Positions 11,937 through 60,426 of a DNA stretch of 64,000 bases are shown here, one piece after another; the stretch's first letter is position 1; the number at the start of each line of letters is the position of its first letter. The translations under genes and the position numbers were made by a program. The notes under the pieces are model-generated. The model did not search any database, was not told the origin of the DNA, and saw nothing but the letters and a program-made list of their open reading frames with translations. The DNA is from a virus: positions 33,368 through 97,367 of IMG/VR virus record IMGVR_UViG_3300013132_000034; one strand, 5' to 3'.

Positions 11937-12530
11937 ATGAAAAGAAGATTTAACTCTCTCTATGAGACATACAAGCAAAAATTTACTAGCGGTGGGTTTC
12001 TATATGGTTCAACTGTAAAATTAAAAGACACATTCTTTAAATCAGATTTCTATAAAGGTCAAACACAAGAATATCAAGATTTGCTAAAATCTTGGACTCA
12101 ATCTGATTTGCTACTACGGGTAACTGGTGTAAAGCCTGTGAGACCTACTACACAAGGCGCTGGTAATGCAGAAATAACAGGTAGTGAATTTGATGTAGAT
12201 ATAACACAAGAAATAGCCCCGGGTAGATATGTAGATTATGTAACTGTTCCGGGTGTATATTTACAGCCTTATGGCAATGGCATTAATTTACCTAAAATTC
12301 CCGATTCATTAAAGAGAAACGATAAAGTTCAAATTAAACCTGAAGTTGAAAAACCTGAAGATGAACAACAAGTACAACATACAGTAACTTCTGATGATGG
12401 TAAAGGTAAGCTTATTAAGGGTGATAGAAAATTGGTTAACAAAAACATCAAGATACCTGCTTCGCCAGATGTTAGTGCAAAATCACCATCAGTTGCAAGC
12501 TATACGCACAAGTATTTACCTAAGCGCTAA
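11937..12530 (+). CDS. late protein of unknown function, possible head-packaged protein
   Basis: This 197-residue protein is not a family I recognise. It begins MKRRFNSLYETYKQ, with LYE(10)-T resembling a weak gp21-type cleavage site, as in the other late plus-strand genes. The middle (residues about 50-130) is a compact, glycine/valine-rich segment, and the C-terminal 60 residues are charged and low in complexity. It is driven by its own late promoter and is isolated on the plus strand between minus-strand operons. Its last 11 nt overlap the end of gp44 on the other strand. A virion or internal-protein role is an inference. Confidence 0.6.
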   Translation: MKRRFNSLYETYKQKFTSGGFLYGSTVKLKDTFFKSDFYKGQTQEYQDLLKSWTQSDLLLRVTGVKPVRPTTQGAGNAEITGSEFDVDITQEIAPGRYVDYVTVPGVYLQPYGNGINLPKIPDSLKRNDKVQIKPEVEKPEDEQQVQHTVTSDDGKGKLIKGDRKLVNKNIKIPASPDVSAKSPSVASYTHKYLPKR

Positions 12531-29014: not shown

Positions 29015-29689
29015 ATGAATAAAGTAAGGGACTTAGTAGATTTGTCTAAGGTATATGAAGCAGTAAAGACATCTAAAGTGTCTGACCCTAAGGCAAAATT
29101 TGGTACAAAACCTGGCAAGCCAATGCAAGCTATACCTACAGTAAAAGCAAAAGAACCTCTTACCTCTGACCATAAACCTAAACAACCCTTTTTTCATAAA
29201 GATTCTGGCCCGGAGAATGCAGATAATTTTAATAAAAACATAGTAGATCCAAAGACAAACAAAGGTAAAGAGAATGTTTATGAGCCAGAAAAATTTTCAG
29301 ATAATATCGAAAAAAAAGTAAAAGAGAGTATAAATAATTTTATGAATAACAAATCTATTTTTGACAAACTTTACGAAGAGGTAATGGGAGGCACAGAAGA
29401 TGCCGAAGCCCTCGACGCACAAGAGCTCGGCATTGGCCCTGAACAAGAGGGTGAAAAGTCCGAAGCTGAAATGAGCTCAAAAGAGCTTATAGCGAAAGCT
29501 TTAGAATTACTTCAGCTAGCTCATGATAAATGCCCTGAAGAGGGTGGCGATGAGCATGAAGGTTCAGATGAATTTGGTCCTGAAGCCGGTAAGGAAGAAG
29601 GCCAGGAAGATGAAGAAGATGGTGAAGAGCAAGAAGAAGGTAAGAAAGAGGAGAAGAAGGAAGATAAGAAAGAAGAAGTAGCTGGCTAA
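29015..29689 (+). CDS. acidic late protein with capsid-targeting-like N-terminus (head core candidate)
   Basis: I start at the ATG 5 nt after TATAAATA. The 224-residue product begins MNKVRDLVDLSKVYEA, with VYE(15)-A matching the T4 gp21-type site. A second LYEE site lies near residue 117. Residues 30-100 are Lys/Pro-rich. The C-terminal half is extremely acidic, then alternates Glu and Lys (about residues 165-222), like prohead core or scaffold proteins. It stops at TAA (29687-29689) after EEVAG, but the frame continues open for 98 more codons. A head core or internal protein is the best guess; no family is recognised. Confidence 0.6.
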   Translation: MNKVRDLVDLSKVYEAVKTSKVSDPKAKFGTKPGKPMQAIPTVKAKEPLTSDHKPKQPFFHKDSGPENADNFNKNIVDPKTNKGKENVYEPEKFSDNIEKKVKESINNFMNNKSIFDKLYEEVMGGTEDAEALDAQELGIGPEQEGEKSEAEMSSKELIAKALELLQLAHDKCPEEGGDEHEGSDEFGPEAGKEEGQEDEEDGEEQEEGKKEEKKEDKKEEVAG

Positions 29690-32962: not shown

Positions 32963-33334
32963 TTAACTTTCAACTAATTTCTTAACAACATAGGCTAATT
33001 TTTTTGTAATGCCATAAATCTTTTGAGTTAATAATCTAGCAAACTTTAAATAAGTCTTTTTTCTCTTAACAGTAGGATTTGCTGCAGCTTCACCTAATTT
33101 AGAATATAAATTATCACAGCATATAAAAATATGTTCTATTAGGTCGTAAACATTTGTTAATTCAGAAGGCACTGCTCTTTTAACGTTAACATTGTTAGGA
33201 TTTTGATGTTGATTACCAAATATACCGTTAATAGTGACAGGATTAGATTTCAACTCCCTATTAGCTAATCCTGCAACATACCTATCACCTGTCATCATCT
33301 GTGTATCTTCACACATTTTTTTGAATGAAATCAT
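32963..33334 (-). CDS. late hypothetical protein with capsid-targeting-like start
   Basis: I start at the ATG of MISFKKMCED because the box ATTAAATA lies exactly 5 nt upstream; a longer reading would run through the promoter. The product is 123 residues. MISFKKMCE(9)-D resembles the T4 Alt pro-segment (which ends in Asp-Glu before Asp). The C-terminal half is Lys-rich and helical (TVKRKKTYLKFARLLTQKIYGITKKLAYVVKKLVES). It is divergent from the late gene at 33358, with overlapping promoters. The family is unknown. Confidence 0.6.
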   Translation of the reverse strand: MISFKKMCEDTQMMTGDRYVAGLANRELKSNPVTINGIFGNQHQNPNNVNVKRAVPSELTNVYDLIEHIFICCDNLYSKLGEAAANPTVKRKKTYLKFARLLTQKIYGITKKLAYVVKKLVES

Positions 33335-33357: not shown

Positions 33358-33774
33358 ATGAAAAATTATCAATCACGCTTTTTTAAGATAATTGAAGCTG
33401 ATGAAAACGCTGTAACAGCGGATCAATCCGCAGATCAAGTAGCCGCAAATCAACAACTAACTACAACTGATGTTAAGGATTTAGGTGCTGTAAAAGGTGC
33501 AGATCAAGTTGCAGTAGCAAAGCAAGAGTCAACAGCTCAGCAGTTAACTGAGCTGCAGAGTTGGATAGGAAGGCTTGATGAGTTTATCACATATTTGAAC
33601 GGTGTAGATGAAAATTCTATTCAAACTAAGCTACACAAAGCAGGGTGCGATTCATTATTTGAAAAGATAGCAAGAAGTGAAACAAAGAAAATTGCTAGAG
33701 TAGCGGTAGATTTAAGTTCTTTAGCTGAATCACTCAAGGGCTATCTCATTGCTGGTTCTAACGATAACGGATAA
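33358..33774 (+). CDS. late protein with strong capsid-targeting-like N-terminus
   Basis: The 138-residue protein begins MKNYQSRFFKIIEADENAV. IIE(13)-A is a textbook match to the T4 internal-protein site, and the segment resembles T4 IPIII (MKTYQEFIAEA). An Ala/Gln/Asp-rich stretch follows (about residues 14-70). The C-terminal half is helical (LQSWIGRLDEFITYLNG, KIARVAVDLSSLAESLKGYL). No enzyme motif is seen. Its end overlaps the convergent primase by 17 nt. An internal head protein is inferred. Confidence 0.65.
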   Translation: MKNYQSRFFKIIEADENAVTADQSADQVAANQQLTTTDVKDLGAVKGADQVAVAKQESTAQQLTELQSWIGRLDEFITYLNGVDENSIQTKLHKAGCDSLFEKIARSETKKIARVAVDLSSLAESLKGYLIAGSNDNG

Positions 33775-43620: not shown

Positions 43621-44358
43621 TTATAATGGTATACAGTTATAGGAATTCCAGCTTATTTCTTTTTTATAAGGTACTGGGTCAATATAACCAGCTTTAACAA
43701 ACCCTTGCAATCTCAAGCTACACGCGGTACATTCACCGCACGCTTCATCACCACCTTCATAACACGTCCACGTATTTGCAAAATCTATTTTATGGACAAC
43801 ACCTAAGCAAACAATTTCGGTTTTAGAACTATTTAAAAGCGGTGCTTCAACTTTTATTCGACACCGTCTATTTAAATTAGAAAGTCGATTAATTTCCTCT
43901 ATAAATTCTTTACTACCATCCCAATAACCTGCAATACTATCAGCTTGTGCAGCACCATGCCAAACTGCTGCAGCATTTAATGCTTCTGCACGAGCCAAAC
44001 ACATACTAATAATCATTAAGTTTCGAAATGGAACATAATTAACTGTTTGCGGATCTCCCATAGCATCTTTTGCCTTTGCCACAGAAATATTATTGTTTGT
44101 AAGTGAAGAAGTACTTGCAATATTTTTAAAAAATGAAATGTCAATAATATCGTGCGTTACATTATCTTCGCCAATTTTTCTTTTTATGCTTTCAATTTGA
44201 AGTGAAGCGTAATTTATTTCCTTTAAATGTTTTTGACTATAATTAAAGGTAATTGCATGGATTTTTTTATAATATTCAACTGCTTTGTGTAGGAGAACAG
44301 TACTATCCATTCCGCCGCTAACAGGAATAACAACTGCAGCTTCTTTATTTTGTGTCAT
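43621..44358 (-). CDS. queC: 7-cyano-7-deazaguanine synthase QueC-like
   Basis: The 245-residue PP-loop ATPase has SGGMDS (14-19), NYVPFRNLMIISMCLARAEAL, and an intact zinc site C199-x7-C207-x2-C210-x2-C213 (CYEGGDEACGECTAC). QueC converts carboxy-deazaguanine to preQ0 with ATP and ammonia. When paired with a Gat domain it can instead form the formamidine of archaeosine. FolE, QueD, QueE and the DNA transglycosylase DpdA are not in this window. Its start lies inside the uvsX end (14-nt overlap). Confidence 0.92.
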   Translation of the reverse strand: MTQNKEAAVVIPVSGGMDSTVLLHKAVEYYKKIHAITFNYSQKHLKEINYASLQIESIKRKIGEDNVTHDIIDISFFKNIASTSSLTNNNISVAKAKDAMGDPQTVNYVPFRNLMIISMCLARAEALNAAAVWHGAAQADSIAGYWDGSKEFIEEINRLSNLNRRCRIKVEAPLLNSSKTEIVCLGVVHKIDFANTWTCYEGGDEACGECTACSLRLQGFVKAGYIDPVPYKKEISWNSYNCIPL

Positions 44359-49816: not shown

Positions 49817-50716
49817 ATGAATAGTAAGGATAACAGACTTATATTTGAAGCTTACTTTAATAAGAAGAAATTAATAAATGAAGCTCCACCAATTGACATG
49901 TCGGGTGATATTTACTCAGAGCCAGCAGTAGGGGGTACTTTACCTGGTAAAGGTAAAGGGTATGGTCAAGGAGCAATAGAAGGCTATGCTGCAAAAGCAA
50001 AAATTTCTTTAGAAGATGCAGTAAAAAATATGGCAAGATTTATTAGTTCAAAAATGCCTGAGAAAAAAGAAGTTAGTGGTAAGACAGTATTGCATTACCC
50101 TGGCGATCCTAAAACATTTGAAAGAGAAATTACCCCGGAATTTTCTCAAACATTCGGTGTTTCAAAAACAAACGCAGGATTTACTATTCGTATAGTTTTA
50201 GATTATGTTCTTAAAGCAACTAAAACTTCGGGTGGTCTTAAGAAAACTGGAGTACAAAGAAAAGCTGAACGTATAAGTGCAGTTAAAGCTAAAAAAGTAG
50301 CTCCTGTTTCCGTATATGAAGTGGACAAATCAAAACCTGTAGCTGATCCTGTTCTTAAAATTGTAAAGAATGGTTTACCAGAAGAAGATGTACCTGCAAG
50401 AGAAATTTTATCGCTTATAAATCAAATAATTAATGATTATAATGATACACCGGGTCTTGATCCTGCTAAAAAAATTAAAAAAATAAAAAATACTCAAATT
50501 GTAGATGCTTTAATTAAAGTAGGTGTACTAGCGGAAAAAGAAGTTACGCCTCAAGCTGAGCCTGAGGCTGGTGTTGGTACTGGTGAAGCACCTACACAAG
50601 AAGAGAGAGAAGCGTTAGAGGATGCAGCTGATGATCAGGAATTTATTAATACCTATGCAGGTTTTGGCGAAGCCCCGGGCGGCGGGTATGATATAGATTT
50701 TGACAAGATGGATTAA
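49817..50716 (+). CDS. late protein with capsid-targeting-like N-terminus, 299 residues
   Basis: The protein begins MNSKDNRLIFEAYFNKKKLINEAPPI. Two gp21-type sites are possible: IFE(11)-A and INE(22)-A. The central part (residues about 55-150) is a mixed alpha-beta domain (LEDAVKNMARFISSKMPEK, GVSKTNAGFTIRIVLDYVLKATKT). A basic linker and a helical segment follow, and the C-terminal 60 residues are acidic and end FGEAPGGGYDIDFDKMD. No known enzyme motif is seen. It sits alone on the plus strand between two minus-strand operons. An internal head protein is inferred. Confidence 0.6.
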   Translation: MNSKDNRLIFEAYFNKKKLINEAPPIDMSGDIYSEPAVGGTLPGKGKGYGQGAIEGYAAKAKISLEDAVKNMARFISSKMPEKKEVSGKTVLHYPGDPKTFEREITPEFSQTFGVSKTNAGFTIRIVLDYVLKATKTSGGLKKTGVQRKAERISAVKAKKVAPVSVYEVDKSKPVADPVLKIVKNGLPEEDVPAREILSLINQIINDYNDTPGLDPAKKIKKIKNTQIVDALIKVGVLAEKEVTPQAEPEAGVGTGEAPTQEEREALEDAADDQEFINTYAGFGEAPGGGYDIDFDKMD

Positions 50717-55900: not shown

Positions 55901-56155
55901 GTGAATAATTTTAATGAGCTTGTAAAACGAATACTAGAAAGCACAGGCGCATTGCCCGGAGTTACTGGTAATTTAGCGGGAAGCGGCGGGTCGCTTGGCA
56001 GTTTTCAGACATCCGGTTGGGTGTCAAATCCAGCGGGGACCCCAGGTACTGATGAATTTGCAAAAAATGATTTTAGAAAGCCTGTTGCTCTGGGTGCAAA
56101 AAAGGGCAAAAAAATCAAAATTCAAAGAAGACCATTGATACGTGGTGGTTTATAA
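55901..56155 (+). CDS. small late protein with capsid-targeting-like N-terminus, 84 residues
   Basis: It starts at GTG 6 nt after TATAAATA. MNNFNELVKRILESTGALPG contains ILE(13)-S, a gp21-type site. The rest is Gly/Ser-rich and then strongly basic (ALGAKKGKKIKIQRRPLIRGGL), so the mature form could bind packaged DNA. Its stop overlaps the next ATG by one base (TAATG). No family is recognised. Confidence 0.6.
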   Translation: MNNFNELVKRILESTGALPGVTGNLAGSGGSLGSFQTSGWVSNPAGTPGTDEFAKNDFRKPVALGAKKGKKIKIQRRPLIRGGL

Positions 56156-56583
56156 TGGATTTAGGTCATTGGGTTTTAGCAGAAAATGTACAAATAGATG
56201 AAGCTGCTTTTGGATTTATTTATGAAATAACTAATACAGTCACAAGCAAAAAATATATAGGTAAAAAGCAATGTATTTCAAAAATAAAAAGAAACCCGCT
56301 TAAGGGTAAAGTAAATAAAAGAATTTTTAAAAAAGAATCTGACTGGAAGTCTTATACAAGCTCGTCAAATGAATTAAATGAAGATATTAAAAAGTACGGG
56401 AAAGATAAATTTATTTTTAAAATTCTAAAGGTATGTAATAGCAAGTGGGAGTTGGCATATTTTGAAATAAAAGAACAAATAGACAGAAACGTATTACTGA
56501 GAGATGACTATTACAATGGTATCATAAATGTAAGAATAGGTACTCCTCCGAATAATTTTAAAGAATCTATTGAAACAAGATAA
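56155..56583 (+). CDS. GIY-YIG endonuclease domain protein
   Basis: The 142-residue protein has FGFIYEITN (19-27) and KKYIGKK (32-38), the GIY and YIG motifs. These are followed by ESDWKSYTSSSNELNEDIKKYGKDKFIFKILKVC and ELAYFEIKEQIDRNVLLRDDYYNGIINVRIG, the pattern of a stand-alone GIY-YIG nuclease conserved in T4-like phages. It cuts DNA at an unknown target. There is no separate DNA-binding domain. Its first 18 residues (MDLGHWVLAENVQIDEAA) add an IDE(16)-A site before the nuclease core, as in the other cassette proteins. Confidence 0.85.
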   Translation: MDLGHWVLAENVQIDEAAFGFIYEITNTVTSKKYIGKKQCISKIKRNPLKGKVNKRIFKKESDWKSYTSSSNELNEDIKKYGKDKFIFKILKVCNSKWELAYFEIKEQIDRNVLLRDDYYNGIINVRIGTPPNNFKESIETR

Positions 56584-56603
56584 TAATCATCTATACTAAA
56601 TTG

Positions 56604-57170
56604 ATGTCACGGGTTTTACATTTACCTCAATATAATCTTCAAATTATAAGCTTTGATAAAGTTTATAGTGAAAAATTTATAAAAAATTTCTTTAATAATT
56701 GTGAAGAATATAAAATAAAAGAAATCACATTAAAAAATAAAGACGTTAAAAAATTAATGTATCACAATACTATATATGCAATTTGTGAAGAAATTATTCA
56801 AACAAAAGTTAAGGAAAAGTCTATAATTTTCTTTAGTACAAGTACTTTGACAAAGACTGATCTCAACAATTATATAAATGAAGAAGAGCTGTTAATTTTT
56901 TTTGAATTATTGTTGAGAAAACTGTCTAAAATACTACCGGTCAAAGTCTTTATTACTAGTAATACATTTAGTTATTTTACTCATATTTGGAAAAAATATG
57001 ATTCTAAGGGTATTGAGCTTTTAAACAATATTAGAGCTTTTACTGAGAAAATTGATTATAGTAAATTTACATTTAAAAGAATAAGACTTTTTTCAAATAG
57101 ATATGGTTTGACTTTTCTTTCAAGCGTGTATTTTAACACGTTAAAGTCAAAACAACTGCTTCTAAAGTAA
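56604..57170 (+). CDS. hypothetical late-cassette protein, 188 residues
   Basis: I start at the ATG of MSRVLHLPQYNLQIISFDKVY. The protein is Lys/Ile/Phe-rich with an alpha-beta layout (SIIFFSTSTLTKTDLNNYINEEELLIFFELLLRKLSKILPVKVFITSNTFSYF). No family is recognised and there is no capsid-targeting-like start. It follows the nuclease by 20 nt and precedes another late promoter. Confidence 0.6.
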   Translation: MSRVLHLPQYNLQIISFDKVYSEKFIKNFFNNCEEYKIKEITLKNKDVKKLMYHNTIYAICEEIIQTKVKEKSIIFFSTSTLTKTDLNNYINEEELLIFFELLLRKLSKILPVKVFITSNTFSYFTHIWKKYDSKGIELLNNIRAFTEKIDYSKFTFKRIRLFSNRYGLTFLSSVYFNTLKSKQLLLK

Positions 57171-57176
57171 TAAATA
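57169..57176 (+). promoter_or_regulatory. late promoter box AATAAATA
   Basis: Plus strand, 5 nt before the GTG at 57182, overlapping the stop of the preceding gene. Confidence 0.6.
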
Positions 57177-57181
57177 TATAT

Positions 57182-57661
57182 GTGAGCAAGTATTTGTCTA
57201 AATTGTTGTCTGTTTATGAATCTCTAGATTCAAAGCATTTACCATCCGAAAAACAAGAGGAATGCGAAACTTGTGATAAACAAAGGGATGTTTCAGATGA
57301 ATTTGATGTTGCACATACATATACACATCCTTCAACAAACAAAAAAGTTTTTTGTATGATGCGTAAGCATCCTATGGGTTATAATATCATAGATATAGAT
57401 GAGGATGGTAAGCCTGTTGTAGATATATTTGGCCCGTTAAAAGATAATAATGCTGATGAAGAAGCAGAAAGTTTTGCAATGAAAGGTTTTTTAGGCGCAC
57501 CAATTAATCCAACTGAAATTGCATTAGTTAAAACACTAGCAGGTGATACAGCAAAAGGTGGTTTGTTTAGCAATCCGCAAAAAGATATGGAAAAAGCTTA
57601 CGGTACATTAGTAAGTAAGCTAGCTAATAAAATAAAAACGGTAGCAAATACAATAAAATGA
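57182..57661 (+). CDS. late protein with capsid-targeting-like N-terminus, 159 residues
   Basis: The GTG start is fixed by the box 5 nt upstream. MSKYLSKLLSVYESLDSKH has VYE(13)-S. Next comes QEECETCDKQ, a Cys-x-x-Cys motif. The middle is alpha-beta (HTYTHPSTNKKVFCMMRKHPMGYNIIDIDEDG) and the end is a basic helix (LVSKLANKIKTVANTIK). No enzyme motif is recognised. The stop overlaps the next ATG as ATGA. Head packaging is inferred. Confidence 0.6.
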   Translation: MSKYLSKLLSVYESLDSKHLPSEKQEECETCDKQRDVSDEFDVAHTYTHPSTNKKVFCMMRKHPMGYNIIDIDEDGKPVVDIFGPLKDNNADEEAESFAMKGFLGAPINPTEIALVKTLAGDTAKGGLFSNPQKDMEKAYGTLVSKLANKIKTVANTIK

Positions 57662-57990
57662 AATTTATAAACTTAATTGAAAAATATTATACATTACTTG
57701 AACAAGAACCTGCTTCTGCTCTTCCACCACAGCAGCCTCAACAACAACAGGATGCAGCGATGCCCCCAGTAGAACAACCAGCCGCACAGCCTGCGGCACC
57801 ATTATCAACTGAAGGTGAAGCAATGTTAGTGAGATTACTTAAAAAAGCTCTAGTGATAAAGCCAGATACAACTGATACAGATTCAATTTTAGAACTTCCT
57901 GATGTAAATCCCGATAATGCTAAAAATGTTTTGCAGCAAATTATTACTTTAATAAGAAAATACGACCCAGACGTAGATTTAAACAAATGA
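57658..57990 (+). CDS. late protein with capsid-targeting-like N-terminus and Gln/Pro linker, 110 residues
   Basis: MKFINLIEKYYTLLEQEPASA has LLE(15)-Q; a Gln after the Glu is less typical. Residues about 20-50 are Pro/Gln/Ala-rich (PPQQPQQQQDAAMPPVEQPAAQPAAP). The C-terminal 60 residues form a small helical domain (EAMLVRLLKKALVIK and NAKNVLQQIITLIRKYDPDV). It is joined to both neighbours by ATGA overlaps, so the three genes are co-translated. Function is unknown. Confidence 0.6.
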   Translation: MKFINLIEKYYTLLEQEPASALPPQQPQQQQDAAMPPVEQPAAQPAAPLSTEGEAMLVRLLKKALVIKPDTTDTDSILELPDVNPDNAKNVLQQIITLIRKYDPDVDLNK

Positions 57991-58769
57991 AATTTGATTT
58001 TGTTATTGAGAGTATTCTCAAAAAACATATAATTTTTGAAGCTGCTGGCAAAACAATTGTAATATTTCCGGGCGGGTTTCATCCCTTTCACCTAGGTCAT
58101 AAAAGTATTTTTGATAATATACAAAAAACTTTTCCCGGTTCAGATTCATACATAGCAATAACTGATTACACTGAAGAGAGACCTTTTACTGCAGAAGAAA
58201 AAAAACTAATTATTTCATCAACAGGAATAGATCCCTCAAAGATAATTCAAGTAAAATCACCTTTTAGACCTGAAGAGATTTTAAAAAAATATAACCCAGA
58301 TACAGATAATGTAATTTTTGTGATAGGAGAGAAAGAAAAATATGACCCTTCGAGAAAATCATTATTTATAAGAACTAAAAAAGATGGTTCGCCTTCTTAT
58401 TTTCAAGATTACGACCCTGGCAAGCCATTAGATTCATTTGATAAGCATGGCTACATATATTTGTTTCCAACAATAAAATTTGGAAAAGATGTGTTTGGTT
58501 CAAATATTCAAAGTGCATCAGAATTAAGAAAAAAATATAATTCTTTAAATGATAATCAAAAAATAAATTTAATTAAAAAATTGTATGTTAAAAACGTGGA
58601 TAAAATTAAAAAAATATTCGATTTACATCTTGGCAATGAAGAATCAGATGAAAGTCCGGAAATTGCTAAAGAATTAATGAAAGATACAGATAAAGCATTT
58701 AATGATGTTTATTTAAACCCACCGTACAAAGTTGATAGCCAGTTAACTGTTGGTAGAATGAAGTATTAA
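57987..58769 (+). CDS. HxGH nucleotidyltransferase with capsid-targeting-like N-terminus
   Basis: The 260-residue protein has a cytidylyltransferase-like core. TIVIFPGGFHPFHLGHKSI carries HLGH (35-38), ITDYTEERPFTAEEKKLII follows, and SASELRKKYNS near residue 175 replaces the usual ISSTxxR. The family forms nucleotide-activated products such as NAD, FAD, CDP-glycerol or pantetheine intermediates. The first 18 residues (MKFDFVIESILKKHIIFE) precede the strand that normally opens the fold and end in IFE(18)-A. It may therefore be packaged and injected. Its substrate is unknown. Confidence 0.75.
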   Translation: MKFDFVIESILKKHIIFEAAGKTIVIFPGGFHPFHLGHKSIFDNIQKTFPGSDSYIAITDYTEERPFTAEEKKLIISSTGIDPSKIIQVKSPFRPEEILKKYNPDTDNVIFVIGEKEKYDPSRKSLFIRTKKDGSPSYFQDYDPGKPLDSFDKHGYIYLFPTIKFGKDVFGSNIQSASELRKKYNSLNDNQKINLIKKLYVKNVDKIKKIFDLHLGNEESDESPEIAKELMKDTDKAFNDVYLNPPYKVDSQLTVGRMKY

Positions 58770-59314
58770 GATTTTTTTTCTATTAGTTGAACAACTTCAA
58801 ATAATATTTTTTCGAGATTTTCCTTGCTTTCTTTTGACAAAATACTTGAAATTTTTGAAAGTAAATCACTAGAACCTGAATCAAATGCTAGTGCTATTTG
58901 TTGTTCTTCGTTTTGCTCTTGATGTGGCTCTGACACATTTTCATGATCCAAATAATGTTTTATTGAATCTAAATAATCTGCTGCTTTTGTAATTTTAGCC
59001 CTAACCCATGCATCAAGATTGTTTATTTTATCTAATTTATTATATAGACTAACAGCATGGCTTATTGTATTGTAAAGCTCATTTTTAGACATTTGAATTT
59101 CATCTTTATCTATACTACCACTTTGATCAATACTGCAGCCACAATCTTCACATGATTCATCTTTATTTTTCTTGACTAAAGGTGGCTTAATAACTGTTTG
59201 TATAACGGGTGAAAGACCTTGTTGGTTATCTGCTTGGGGTCCCAAATCAACAGTACCTTCGTTTAATACTTTTAAATAAGCATTATTTAAATTAAAAAGA
59301 TCATCTCGGTACAT
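58766..59314 (-). CDS. late protein with capsid-targeting-like N-terminus, 182 residues
   Basis: This minus-strand gene has its own TATAAATA box 5 nt before the ATG. MYRDDLFNLNNAYLKVLNEGTVDLG has LNE(19)-G, a gp21-type site. A Cys-rich motif CEDCGCS follows at about residues 54-60. Then comes a helical domain with NLDAWVRAKITKAADYLDSIKHYLDHE, a layout I associate with uncharacterised proteins of marine myophages. The end is helical and charged. The stop overlaps the convergent nucleotidyltransferase by 4 nt. Confidence 0.6.
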   Translation of the reverse strand: MYRDDLFNLNNAYLKVLNEGTVDLGPQADNQQGLSPVIQTVIKPPLVKKNKDESCEDCGCSIDQSGSIDKDEIQMSKNELYNTISHAVSLYNKLDKINNLDAWVRAKITKAADYLDSIKHYLDHENVSEPHQEQNEEQQIALAFDSGSSDLLSKISSILSKESKENLEKILFEVVQLIEKKS

Positions 59315-59321
59315 ATAAATA
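59314..59321 (+). promoter_or_regulatory. late promoter box TATAAATA (palindromic half)
   Basis: Plus strand, 11 nt before the ATG at 59333. Together with the minus box it forms the perfect palindrome TATAAATATTTATA at 59314-59327. Confidence 0.65.
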
Positions 59322-59327
59322 TTTATA
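59320..59327 (-). promoter_or_regulatory. late promoter box TATAAATA (palindromic half)
   Basis: Minus strand, 5 nt before the ATG at 59314. It overlaps the plus-strand box by two bases. Confidence 0.65.
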
Positions 59328-59332
59328 GAACA

Positions 59333-59629
59333 ATGAAAAGTTTTTCGATGTTTTTTGCCGAATCGCTTAATAATGATATAGCAAATCTTGAGGAAAAAAA
59401 AGGTGCCAGGTGTACAAAGGTAACTGGTCAGCAGTCATCGTCAAGATCGGATAAAAAATATATGAGATGTGCCAGAGTTAATGGTAAGCTTAAGAGGGTG
59501 CACTATGGCGATCCAAAGAGAAGAATAAAGAAATCTAACCCAAAACGTCGTAAGTCATTTAGAGCCAGACATAAATGTTCTTCTGCTAAACCGGGAACAG
59601 CTAAGTATTTTAGTTGTAAAAATTGGTAA
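59333..59629 (+). CDS. small basic late protein with capsid-targeting-like N-terminus, 98 residues
   Basis: MKSFSMFFAESLNN has FAE(10)-S. The mature part would be strongly basic: KLKRVHYGDPKRRIKKSNPKRRKSFRARHKCSSAKPGTAKYFSCKNW, with four Cys that could bind zinc. This KSNPKRRKSFRARH type is familiar from uncharacterised small proteins of aquatic T4-like phages. It probably binds nucleic acid in the head or in the host. Function is not known. Confidence 0.65.
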   Translation: MKSFSMFFAESLNNDIANLEEKKGARCTKVTGQQSSSRSDKKYMRCARVNGKLKRVHYGDPKRRIKKSNPKRRKSFRARHKCSSAKPGTAKYFSCKNW

Positions 59630-59630
59630 T

Positions 59631-59774
59631 ATGAGCAAATTTGATAAACTTGTTAAGGAAATATTAGAAAAAAAGAAAGCGCCCCGGGGGGTTTGCTGGA
59701 AGGGTTATACCATGGTAGGAATGAAGAGTAAAGGCGGCAAGCAAGTACCTAATTGCGTTCCAACAAAAAAGTAG
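59631..59774 (+). CDS. very small basic protein with capsid-targeting-like N-terminus, 47 residues
   Basis: The ATG follows the preceding stop by one base. MSKFDKLVKEILEKKKAPRG has ILE(13)-K, and the rest is GVCWKGYTMVGMKSKGGKQVPNCVPTKK. The two cysteines around a CWKGY...VPNCV motif suggest a small disulfide or metal-bound knot, and the protein is basic. The start resembles that of the 84-residue protein at 55901. It is the smallest member of the cassette. Confidence 0.6.
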   Translation: MSKFDKLVKEILEKKKAPRGVCWKGYTMVGMKSKGGKQVPNCVPTKK

Positions 59775-59803
59775 TTTTATAAACTTTTCACTTAAGTAAT
59801 TAG

Positions 59804-60013
59804 GTGAAATTTTACCGAAAGCAGCAGCTTAGAGATGATGTGGTTTATATTAAGATAAGCTCTGATTTTATATTAGATTTATATGAAAAATCTAAGAAAA
59901 TGAGCGGTATAGACAGAAAAATAATGTTAGATCAGATAAAGTTATTCTCAGAACACATGGATGAATATATCGAAAAACCTGTAAAGCAATCTATTAATAC
60001 TAAAAAATCATAA
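59804..60013 (+). CDS. hypothetical small protein, 69 residues
   Basis: It starts at GTG (MKFYRKQQLRDDVVYIKISSDFILDLYEKSKKMSG). It is charged and helical, with a basic end. The GTG is the best start I see, as no ATG lies nearby. Its stop overlaps the CATAAATA box of the next gene. No late box of its own is visible, so it may be read from the 59.3-kb promoter. Confidence 0.5.
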   Translation: MKFYRKQQLRDDVVYIKISSDFILDLYEKSKKMSGIDRKIMLDQIKLFSEHMDEYIEKPVKQSINTKKS

Positions 60014-60016
60014 ATA
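60009..60016 (+). promoter_or_regulatory. late promoter box CATAAATA
   Basis: Plus strand, 5 nt before the GTG at 60022, which it supports over the TTG one codon upstream. Confidence 0.6.
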
Positions 60017-60021
60017 ATTTG

Positions 60022-60426
60022 GTGAAGTCTTTTCTAAGGTATTACCAAGAGAAAACTATACTTAGTCTTATAGATAATATTGACTTAGAGGGTGTTGGTA
60101 CTGTTAAGTGTATGGCAGATTCAGGTAATAGCGCATATAATGTATTAGATGGAAGAGAAGTAGAATTAAAAGATAATAAAGTTTCATTTTTTACGACAGA
60201 TAGAAACATTAAAATGGTAAAGGATGTATTTGACACTATAACAATTCATATTGGTTCCGGTGTAAATGAAAAACGACCTGTTGTAAAATTTAATATTATT
60301 TTTAATGGAAGAAGATATTATAACGTACCATTTTCGATAGCTGATAGAAGCAAAAATGAAACTGATGTATTGTTAGGAAGAGAATTCTTATCAAAATTAG
60401 ATGCATTAATAGATGTTAATTCCTGA
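60022..60426 (+). CDS. retropepsin-like aspartic protease domain protein
   Basis: The 134-residue protein has MADSGNSAYNVLDG, with D33-S-G35 matching the DTG/DSG catalytic loop. FNIIFNGRRYYNVPFSIADRS and DVLLGREFLSKLDALID follow. This is the layout of the single-domain retropepsin-like / ATP-dependent zinc-protease-like family (C-terminal LLGR.fL). Such proteins act as dimers. The start MKSFLRYYQEKTIL has a weak YQE(10)-K site. It may cleave virion or host proteins; the target is unknown. Confidence 0.6.
   Translation: MKSFLRYYQEKTILSLIDNIDLEGVGTVKCMADSGNSAYNVLDGREVELKDNKVSFFTTDRNIKMVKDVFDTITIHIGSGVNEKRPVVKFNIIFNGRRYYNVPFSIADRSKNETDVLLGREFLSKLDALIDVNS

Follow-up and report, generated by a model that had tools for sequence, protein, structure and literature searches.

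The 64-kb stretch of DNA analysed here (the window; bases 33368-97367 of the 97,367-base virus record IMGVR_UViG_3300013132_000034) encodes about 13 otherwise unrelated proteins, most of them with a late promoter, that begin with a short leader of 8-19 residues ending in hydrophobic-x-Glu. A preliminary description of the window had likened such a set to the internal proteins of phage T4, and the conservation of the Glu in relatives, the swapping of leaders, the late promoters and the T4 spacing of some leaders bear this out: packaging of the leader proteins into heads is well supported, and we put at roughly three in four the probability that they are head-internal cargo with T4-type leaders trimmed by a relative of the protease gp21. 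As judged from its genes, the window comes from a deep-branching T4-like phage with a bacterial host. The leaders are listed below, with a slash marking the predicted cut.

11937 to 11966, plus strand: leader MKRRFNSLYE/T of the gene at 11937-12530; 3/3 orthologues, down to 42% identity.
29015 to 29059, plus strand: leader MNKVRDLVDLSKVYE/A of the gene at 29015-29689 (acidic protein); 4/6 orthologues, the others having LYTE/K or LYNE/K.
33308 to 33334, minus strand: weaker leader MISFKKMCE/D of the gene at 32963-33334; 4/4 orthologues.
33358 to 33396, plus strand: leader MKNYQSRFFKIIE/A of the gene at 33358-33774; motif in 4/5 and Glu in 5/5 orthologues.
49817 to 49849, plus strand: leader MNSKDNRLIFE/A of the gene at 49817-50716; 5/5 orthologues.
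55901 to 55939, plus strand: leader VNNFNELVKRILE/S, GTG start, of the 84-residue gene at 55901-56155; Glu13 in 7/7 orthologues.
57182 to 57220, plus strand: leader VSKYLSKLLSVYE/S, GTG start, of the gene at 57182-57661; Glu in 4/6 orthologues, Asp in one.
57658 to 57702, plus strand: leader MKFINLIEKYYTLLE/Q, LLE(15), of the gene at 57658-57990; hydrophobic-x-Glu then Gln in 7/8 orthologues.
57987 to 58040, plus strand: leader MKFDFVIESILKKHIIFE/A of the nucleotidyltransferase gene at 57987-58769; E18 invariant in 6 sequences (5/5 orthologues).
59258 to 59314, minus strand: leader MYRDDLFNLNNAYLKVLNE/G of the gene at 58766-59314; kept in 6/7 orthologues.
59333 to 59362, plus strand: leader MKSFSMFFAE/S of the gene at 59333-59629; motif in 3/4 orthologues; T4 IPII-like pattern.
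59631 to 59669, plus strand: leader MSKFDKLVKEILE/K, ILE(13), of the 47-residue gene at 59631-59774; Glu13 in 4/4 orthologues.
60022 to 60051, plus strand: leader VKSFLRYYQE/K, GTG start, of the retropepsin-like gene at 60022-60426; motif in 8/8 orthologues.

Orthologues were collected from IMG/VR contigs and from four relatives read in stretches; genes of this genome were called by a home-made program, so that some of the start positions may be wrong. All eight leaders named in the preliminary description are present where and as it gave them (8/8). Among its six weaker cases, orthologues support those at 11937, 57658, 59631 and 60022; the one at 33334 (minus) is given less weight because its entire N-terminus is conserved and the Glu is not singled out, and the one at 56155 turned out to be the N-terminus of a SegE domain. 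The proposed cut motif, hydrophobic-x-Glu before A, S or G, stands in its first part, while the next residue is family-specific (A, S, G, T, Q or K), being Gln in 57658, Lys in 59631, mostly Lys in 60022 and Thr or Ser in 11937.

The degree of conservation was assessed with a rule requiring hydrophobic-x-Glu in at least 75% of orthologues within residues 8-20. This rule was passed by 10/16 plus-strand versus 8/51 minus-strand families (Fisher p = 6e-4); internal windows pass it in 12.3% of cases (binomial p = 3e-6 for the plus-strand families). Identity among the orthologues of 13 families is 92% at the leader Glu versus 53% at the other leader positions (Wilcoxon p = 0.0012), a comparison that overstates the difference because these families were picked for the motif. 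In the 60022 family, only the start Met and residue 10 (the Glu) are invariant among the first 19 residues. Motif conservation is weaker for 29015 and 57182 (4/6 each) and for 59333 (3/4) than in the other families, and genes 13935, 30047, 31153, 56604 and 59804, which are late or lie in the same cassette, have no supported leader.

A stricter definition is the exact T4 spacing known from mutational work on IPIII (F/Y4, F/Y7, hydrophobic 8, E10; PMC9026906). Over five genomes this spacing occurs in 6 genes versus 0.23 expected (p = 2e-7), all six being in relatives. Two leaders of the window fit it as well, those of 59333 (MKSFSMFFAE) and 60022 (VKSFLRYYQE), and with those starts both genes are absent from the automatic gene list; in most of the other window leaders the spacing is longer or shorter. 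The leader is also separable from the mature protein. The domain encoded at 59631 (CWKGYxMVGMKxKGGKxVPNCVP) is kept in the relative G002, in which its leader MSKFDKLVKEILE is replaced by MKSFKQYFLE; the 60022 orthologues have the leaders MKTFKNFFIE in G002 and MRSYKDYFYE in contig L011; the nucleotidyltransferase that occupies the equivalent position in G002 begins with MTFRKFFLE; and the 59333 domain is leaderless in Roseobacter phage CRP-235 and in Flavobacterium podophages. Beside this MKxF type, leaders of a second type occur, to judge from five mutually unrelated proteins of the relative G001 (G001:190841, 196099, 196850, 214766 and 78487) that carry an N-terminal [DN]xxLIFE/[AS], similar to the leader of 49817.

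Late promoters on most of the leader genes, as the preliminary description had it, are confirmed: ATAAATA lies at most 40 nucleotides upstream in 9/13 candidates versus 8/89 other genes, an enrichment of the TATAAATA-type promoter (p = 5e-6) that refers to consensus matches only. Specifically, TATAAATA is found 6 nucleotides upstream of 55901, AATAAATA upstream of 57182, CTATAAATATTTAT ahead of the ATG of 58766-59314 (minus), CATAAATA upstream of each of 60022 and 11937, and a late box immediately upstream of 33358. The candidates without a box of their own are 57658, 57987 and 59631, which lie within operons, and 33334 (minus), which has a near match. By this consensus, the leader genes are predicted to be expressed late. 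The [TC]ATAAATA box mostly ends 5-6 nucleotides before the start codon (29015, 55901, 59314 minus, 19230 minus, 26644 minus, and also in G001-G003), so the late mRNAs probably have little or no 5' untranslated leader.

The main rival explanation holds that only 59333, 60022, 59631, 57987, 11937, 55901, 33358 and 57658 have capsid-targeting leaders, the starts of 49817 (LIFE/AY), 29015 and 33334 (minus) being conserved N-terminal helices with another role. We consider such a division unlikely: it would account for the Glu being present in just 4/6 orthologues of 29015 and 57182, for the conservation of 33334 (minus) throughout with no distinctive Glu, and for the lack of an aromatic at residue 4 in the LIFE/AY leader, but it is at odds with the late promoters shared by most of the same genes, and with the presence of LIFE leaders on five mutually unrelated G001 proteins, as expected of a portable tag.

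A precedent for one member of the set as packed cargo, the nucleotidyltransferase singled out in the preliminary description, comes from T4-like cyanophages, in whose virions an enzyme bearing a leader of this kind has been detected. The product of 57987 is classed as an NMNAT/cytidylyltransferase-like enzyme by its profile matches (PF01467, E = 5e-6; phrog_395 and phrog_3041 in PHROG); direct tblastn with it matched two phage records only, and its AlphaFold model (predicted local distance difference test, pLDDT, 46) was too weak to be used. The cyanophage family T4-GC190 matches the same two PHROG families. Passages of Sullivan et al. 2010 (PMC3037559) report this putative cytidylyltransferase in purified S-SM1 virions and discuss whether it is carried and injected; likewise, passages of PMC9602691 place the T4-GC190 homologue ORF91 of S-SCSM1 in virions by mass spectrometry. 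The S-SM1 protein (SSM1_190) starts MKKFSAFLNE/AERS, with the spacing of T4 IPII, and ORF91 starts MKSFLQFLKE/A. The leader is kept in the homologues from P-SSM2, S-RIM14, ACG-2014d and ACG-2014f; a jumbo-phage (Asteriusvirus) homologue is without it. In passages of the cyanophage virion papers and in term searches of their text there is no mention of a targeting leader, and the passages report no neo-N-termini. In the open library of papers, 'capsid targeting' and 'cyanophage' come together in a single paper, a T4 review.

Several results weigh against reading the set as head cargo with cleaved leaders. The loose hydrophobic-x-Glu motif has no genome-wide excess over shuffled or internal controls; the whole-genome count that the preliminary description had proposed as a check lies near background and is not evidence alone, and the claim rests on conservation in relatives, leader swapping and late promoters. 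A near-background count is what an artefact of composition would give, with A+T-rich early codons and promoter-abutting starts yielding N-termini rich in K, N, F, I, L and E from which the motif was picked by eye. This explanation is disfavoured, and we regard it as very improbable, since composition does not explain the orthologue conservation, the exact T4 spacing or the swapping, and tail genes with the same late promoters are without such leaders. Further, the virion mass spectrometry concerns homologues in S-SM1 and S-SCSM1 only, and 57987 belongs to a different subfamily from T4-GC190, with which it was compared via the shared PHROGs only. The residue after the cut (P1') is K, Q, T or D in some families, unlike the A, S or G of the preliminary description; the G001 orthologue of 57182 has Asp at P1 (in T4 IPIII, Asp at P1 stops cutting, not targeting; PMC9026906); and the site of 29015 is shifted in G002 and L015. 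Finally, a Peptidase S77 profile, representing gp21, found no match in the 97-kb fragment, which is incomplete.

The gp21-like protease expected elsewhere in the genome is encoded by relatives: a gp21-family protease is present in G001, G002, G003 and G007, and gp23 in four relatives, in which the inferred cut sites of gp23 and gp22 are CLRE/A and VLKE/A. A gp23 profile likewise had no match in the 97-kb fragment; both genes are unseen probably because the record ends in a repeat-rich gene ahead of their block. In the window, the portal, tail, terminase, DNA polymerase and recombination core genes lie nearly all on the minus strand and the leader-gene candidates mostly on the plus strand, opposite or between them, with a cluster at 55.9-60.4 kb adjoining uvsY/uvsW; in G001 the corresponding cassette has uvsY/uvsW on one side and the gp21-gp22-gp23 block on the other. 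At the contig end (60429-64000, plus strand), a long Thr/Pro/Asn-rich repeat protein (TPTNTPT) is encoded, within which the record stops, short of that block. A similar repeat tail stands at the contig start (L001:1-1082, minus strand), and this is probably where the assembly broke.

With presence in the virion and the gp21 protease of this phage extrapolated from relatives, and with core docking, leader cutting and ejection into the host modelled on T4 only, the following course of events may be envisaged. The accessory proteins would be made late, mostly each from its own TATAAATA promoter; the leader of 8-19 residues, probably an amphipathic helix, would dock the protein on the prohead scaffold core; a gp21-family prohead protease would then cut after hydrophobic-x-Glu, the leader being lost, and the mature protein would remain in the head alongside the DNA. 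The cargo would include the NMNAT/cytidylyltransferase-like enzyme, a retropepsin-like peptidase, a pair of small, strongly basic proteins and, encoded by 55901, a protein with an arm of the capsid protein gp23:

55970 to 56092, plus strand: residues 24-64 of the 55901 product, copying the N-terminal arm of mature gp23; 67% identity over 42 residues to G001 gp23, E = 2e-15.

The gp23-like stretch corresponds to the part of gp23 just after its inferred maturation site, CLRE/A, and the 55901 leader hence sits at the place of the gp23 propeptide. After the gp23-like part, the C-terminus is a basic tail, KKGKKIKIQRRP. In G002, the 55901 homologue has diverged along with that phage's own gp23 arm, and both share GDYRLPKIL. 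We infer that the mature protein may bind the capsid wall or compete with gp23 arms, its tail lying on DNA. This arrangement also bears on the idea of a leader that stays uncut and serves as a docking helix, holding proteins to another part of the virion, such as tail or baseplate. Cleavage is indeed argued by analogy, and low-confidence models of 60022 and 57987 have an N-terminal helix; however, what is conserved is the Glu that closes the leader, which docking would not need, and in 55901 the leader replaces the gp23 propeptide ahead of a gp23-like mature sequence, so that we find an uncut helix quite improbable.

Returning to the proposed head cargo, 59333 encodes a basic protein with a mature net charge of +22. 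Its domain (RRKSFxARxK) and that of 59631 (WKGY...VPNCV), likewise small and basic, are fused in the cyanophage family T4-GC119 (L075:1225-2040 in P-SSM2; L087:23536-25023 in S-SM1), which is encoded beside gp15/gp16. A 59631-like segment, CWDGYEQQGMK...VPNCVP, also occurs in an archaeal tailed virus, Haloarcula virus HCTV-1 (L084:306-845), in a protein that is acidic overall.

The protease suspected in the preliminary description can be made more definite, as profile and fold both point to a retropepsin-like enzyme for 60022:

60052 to 60423, plus strand: retropepsin-like aspartic peptidase domain, motif DSGN; PF05618 in 9/9 members.

The window member alone scores 23.5 bits against a PF05618 curated cut-off of 27. 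Compared with the Pseudomonas periplasmic aspartic peptidase RloA (PDB 9g58), it gives a profile E of 3e-6, from residue 10, and a fold E of 3e-6 (Foldseek); D33, G35 and N36, in a D-S/T-G-N motif, are invariant in the family. The product is thus probably a retropepsin-like aspartic peptidase, as predicted from sequence and model. In phages Mosig and YerA41, a domain of this type forms the C-terminus of a glutathione-synthetase-like enzyme; the Mosig version starts with a leader-like FKNYLEE/A, and the YerA41 version is annotated as a structural protein. More tentatively, and with rather more doubt than confidence, we suggest that a T4-type leader brings the 60022 product into the phage head, to act there as a second protease in capsid maturation or to reach the host as infection starts, together with a detached gp23 arm that would anchor a basic, DNA-binding tail on the inside of the capsid wall.

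The packaged nuclease of the preliminary description, on the other hand, has been given up, the gene in question having no added leader:

56155 to 56583, plus strand: SegE-like GIY-YIG gene, judged to be without a leader; PF19835, E = 3e-31.

Its GHWxL start is found also in the SegE-like proteins of a Felixounavirus and of phage DSS3_VP1, and therefore belongs to the SegE domain outside the T4 group.

As for the virus as a whole, the terminase large subunit has at most 38% identity to those of isolates (e.g. Sinorhizobium phage phiM9), megablast of the 50-62 kb stretch against 50,697 phage records gave no match, and Rfam and tRNA scans found nothing. A QueC gene (PF06508, E = 1e-53) is present in the window (43621-44358, minus strand) and in G001 (G001:61099-61848), and starts of QueE- and QueD-like genes were recognized by eye in relatives; these que genes suggest 7-deazaguanine modification of the DNA. 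A run of glycosyltransferase-like genes with a radical-SAM-like gene, also recognized by eye (L001:8885-16443), is consistent with glycosylation of the virion or of a surface.

If our reading is correct, the unexplained nucleotidyltransferase in marine cyanophage virions would become an instance of a readable rule of packing by a short leader, and the internal cargo of uncultivated T4-like phages would be predictable from sequence. Candidates for time-zero delivery (counter-defence, host take-over) and new leaders for packaging foreign proteins would also come from the set, and the gp23-arm protein would be an unusual attachment of cargo to the capsid wall.

These results can be compared with several known systems. 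In T4, IPI, IPII, IPIII and Alt have capsid-targeting sequences cut by gp21 (PMC9026906, PMC3012670); IPII, for example, starts MKTYQEFIAE, and its annotation is that of a precursor whose leader has 10 residues. The likeness lies in a short leader that has hydrophobic residues near positions 4 and 7, ends in hydrophobic-x-Glu and is placed on unrelated proteins, and in the gp21 family of the relatives; the differences are that there are about 13 proteins here versus 4, that the leaders, of 8-19 residues, are of several sequence types, that P1' is often T, Q or K, and that a retropepsin-like peptidase and a gp23-arm protein are among the proposed cargo. The cyanophage virion cytidylyltransferase/NMNAT enzymes (T4-GC190, ORF91) share the superfamily of 57987 and a leader ending in hydrophobic-x-Glu, although their subfamily differs. 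The RloA-type peptidases (9g58, 9g59) and PF05618 have the fold and the D-S/T-G motif in common with 60022, but the bacterial proteins are periplasmic, whereas the phage protein has a capsid-type leader instead. In phiKZ and SPN3US, ejection proteins carry N-terminal propeptides (phiKZ motif S/A-x-E; PMC10052503, PMC9026906), and proteins inside the head are similarly numerous, a protease related to gp21 cutting some of them after Glu; however, most SPN3US propeptides are of 111-254 residues, and these phages belong to another lineage. Since T4 already provides the logic of such targeting, and its general occurrence has been suggested before (PMC9026906), what is new is how broad the set is, together with the enzymes among its cargo and the protein with the gp23 arm.

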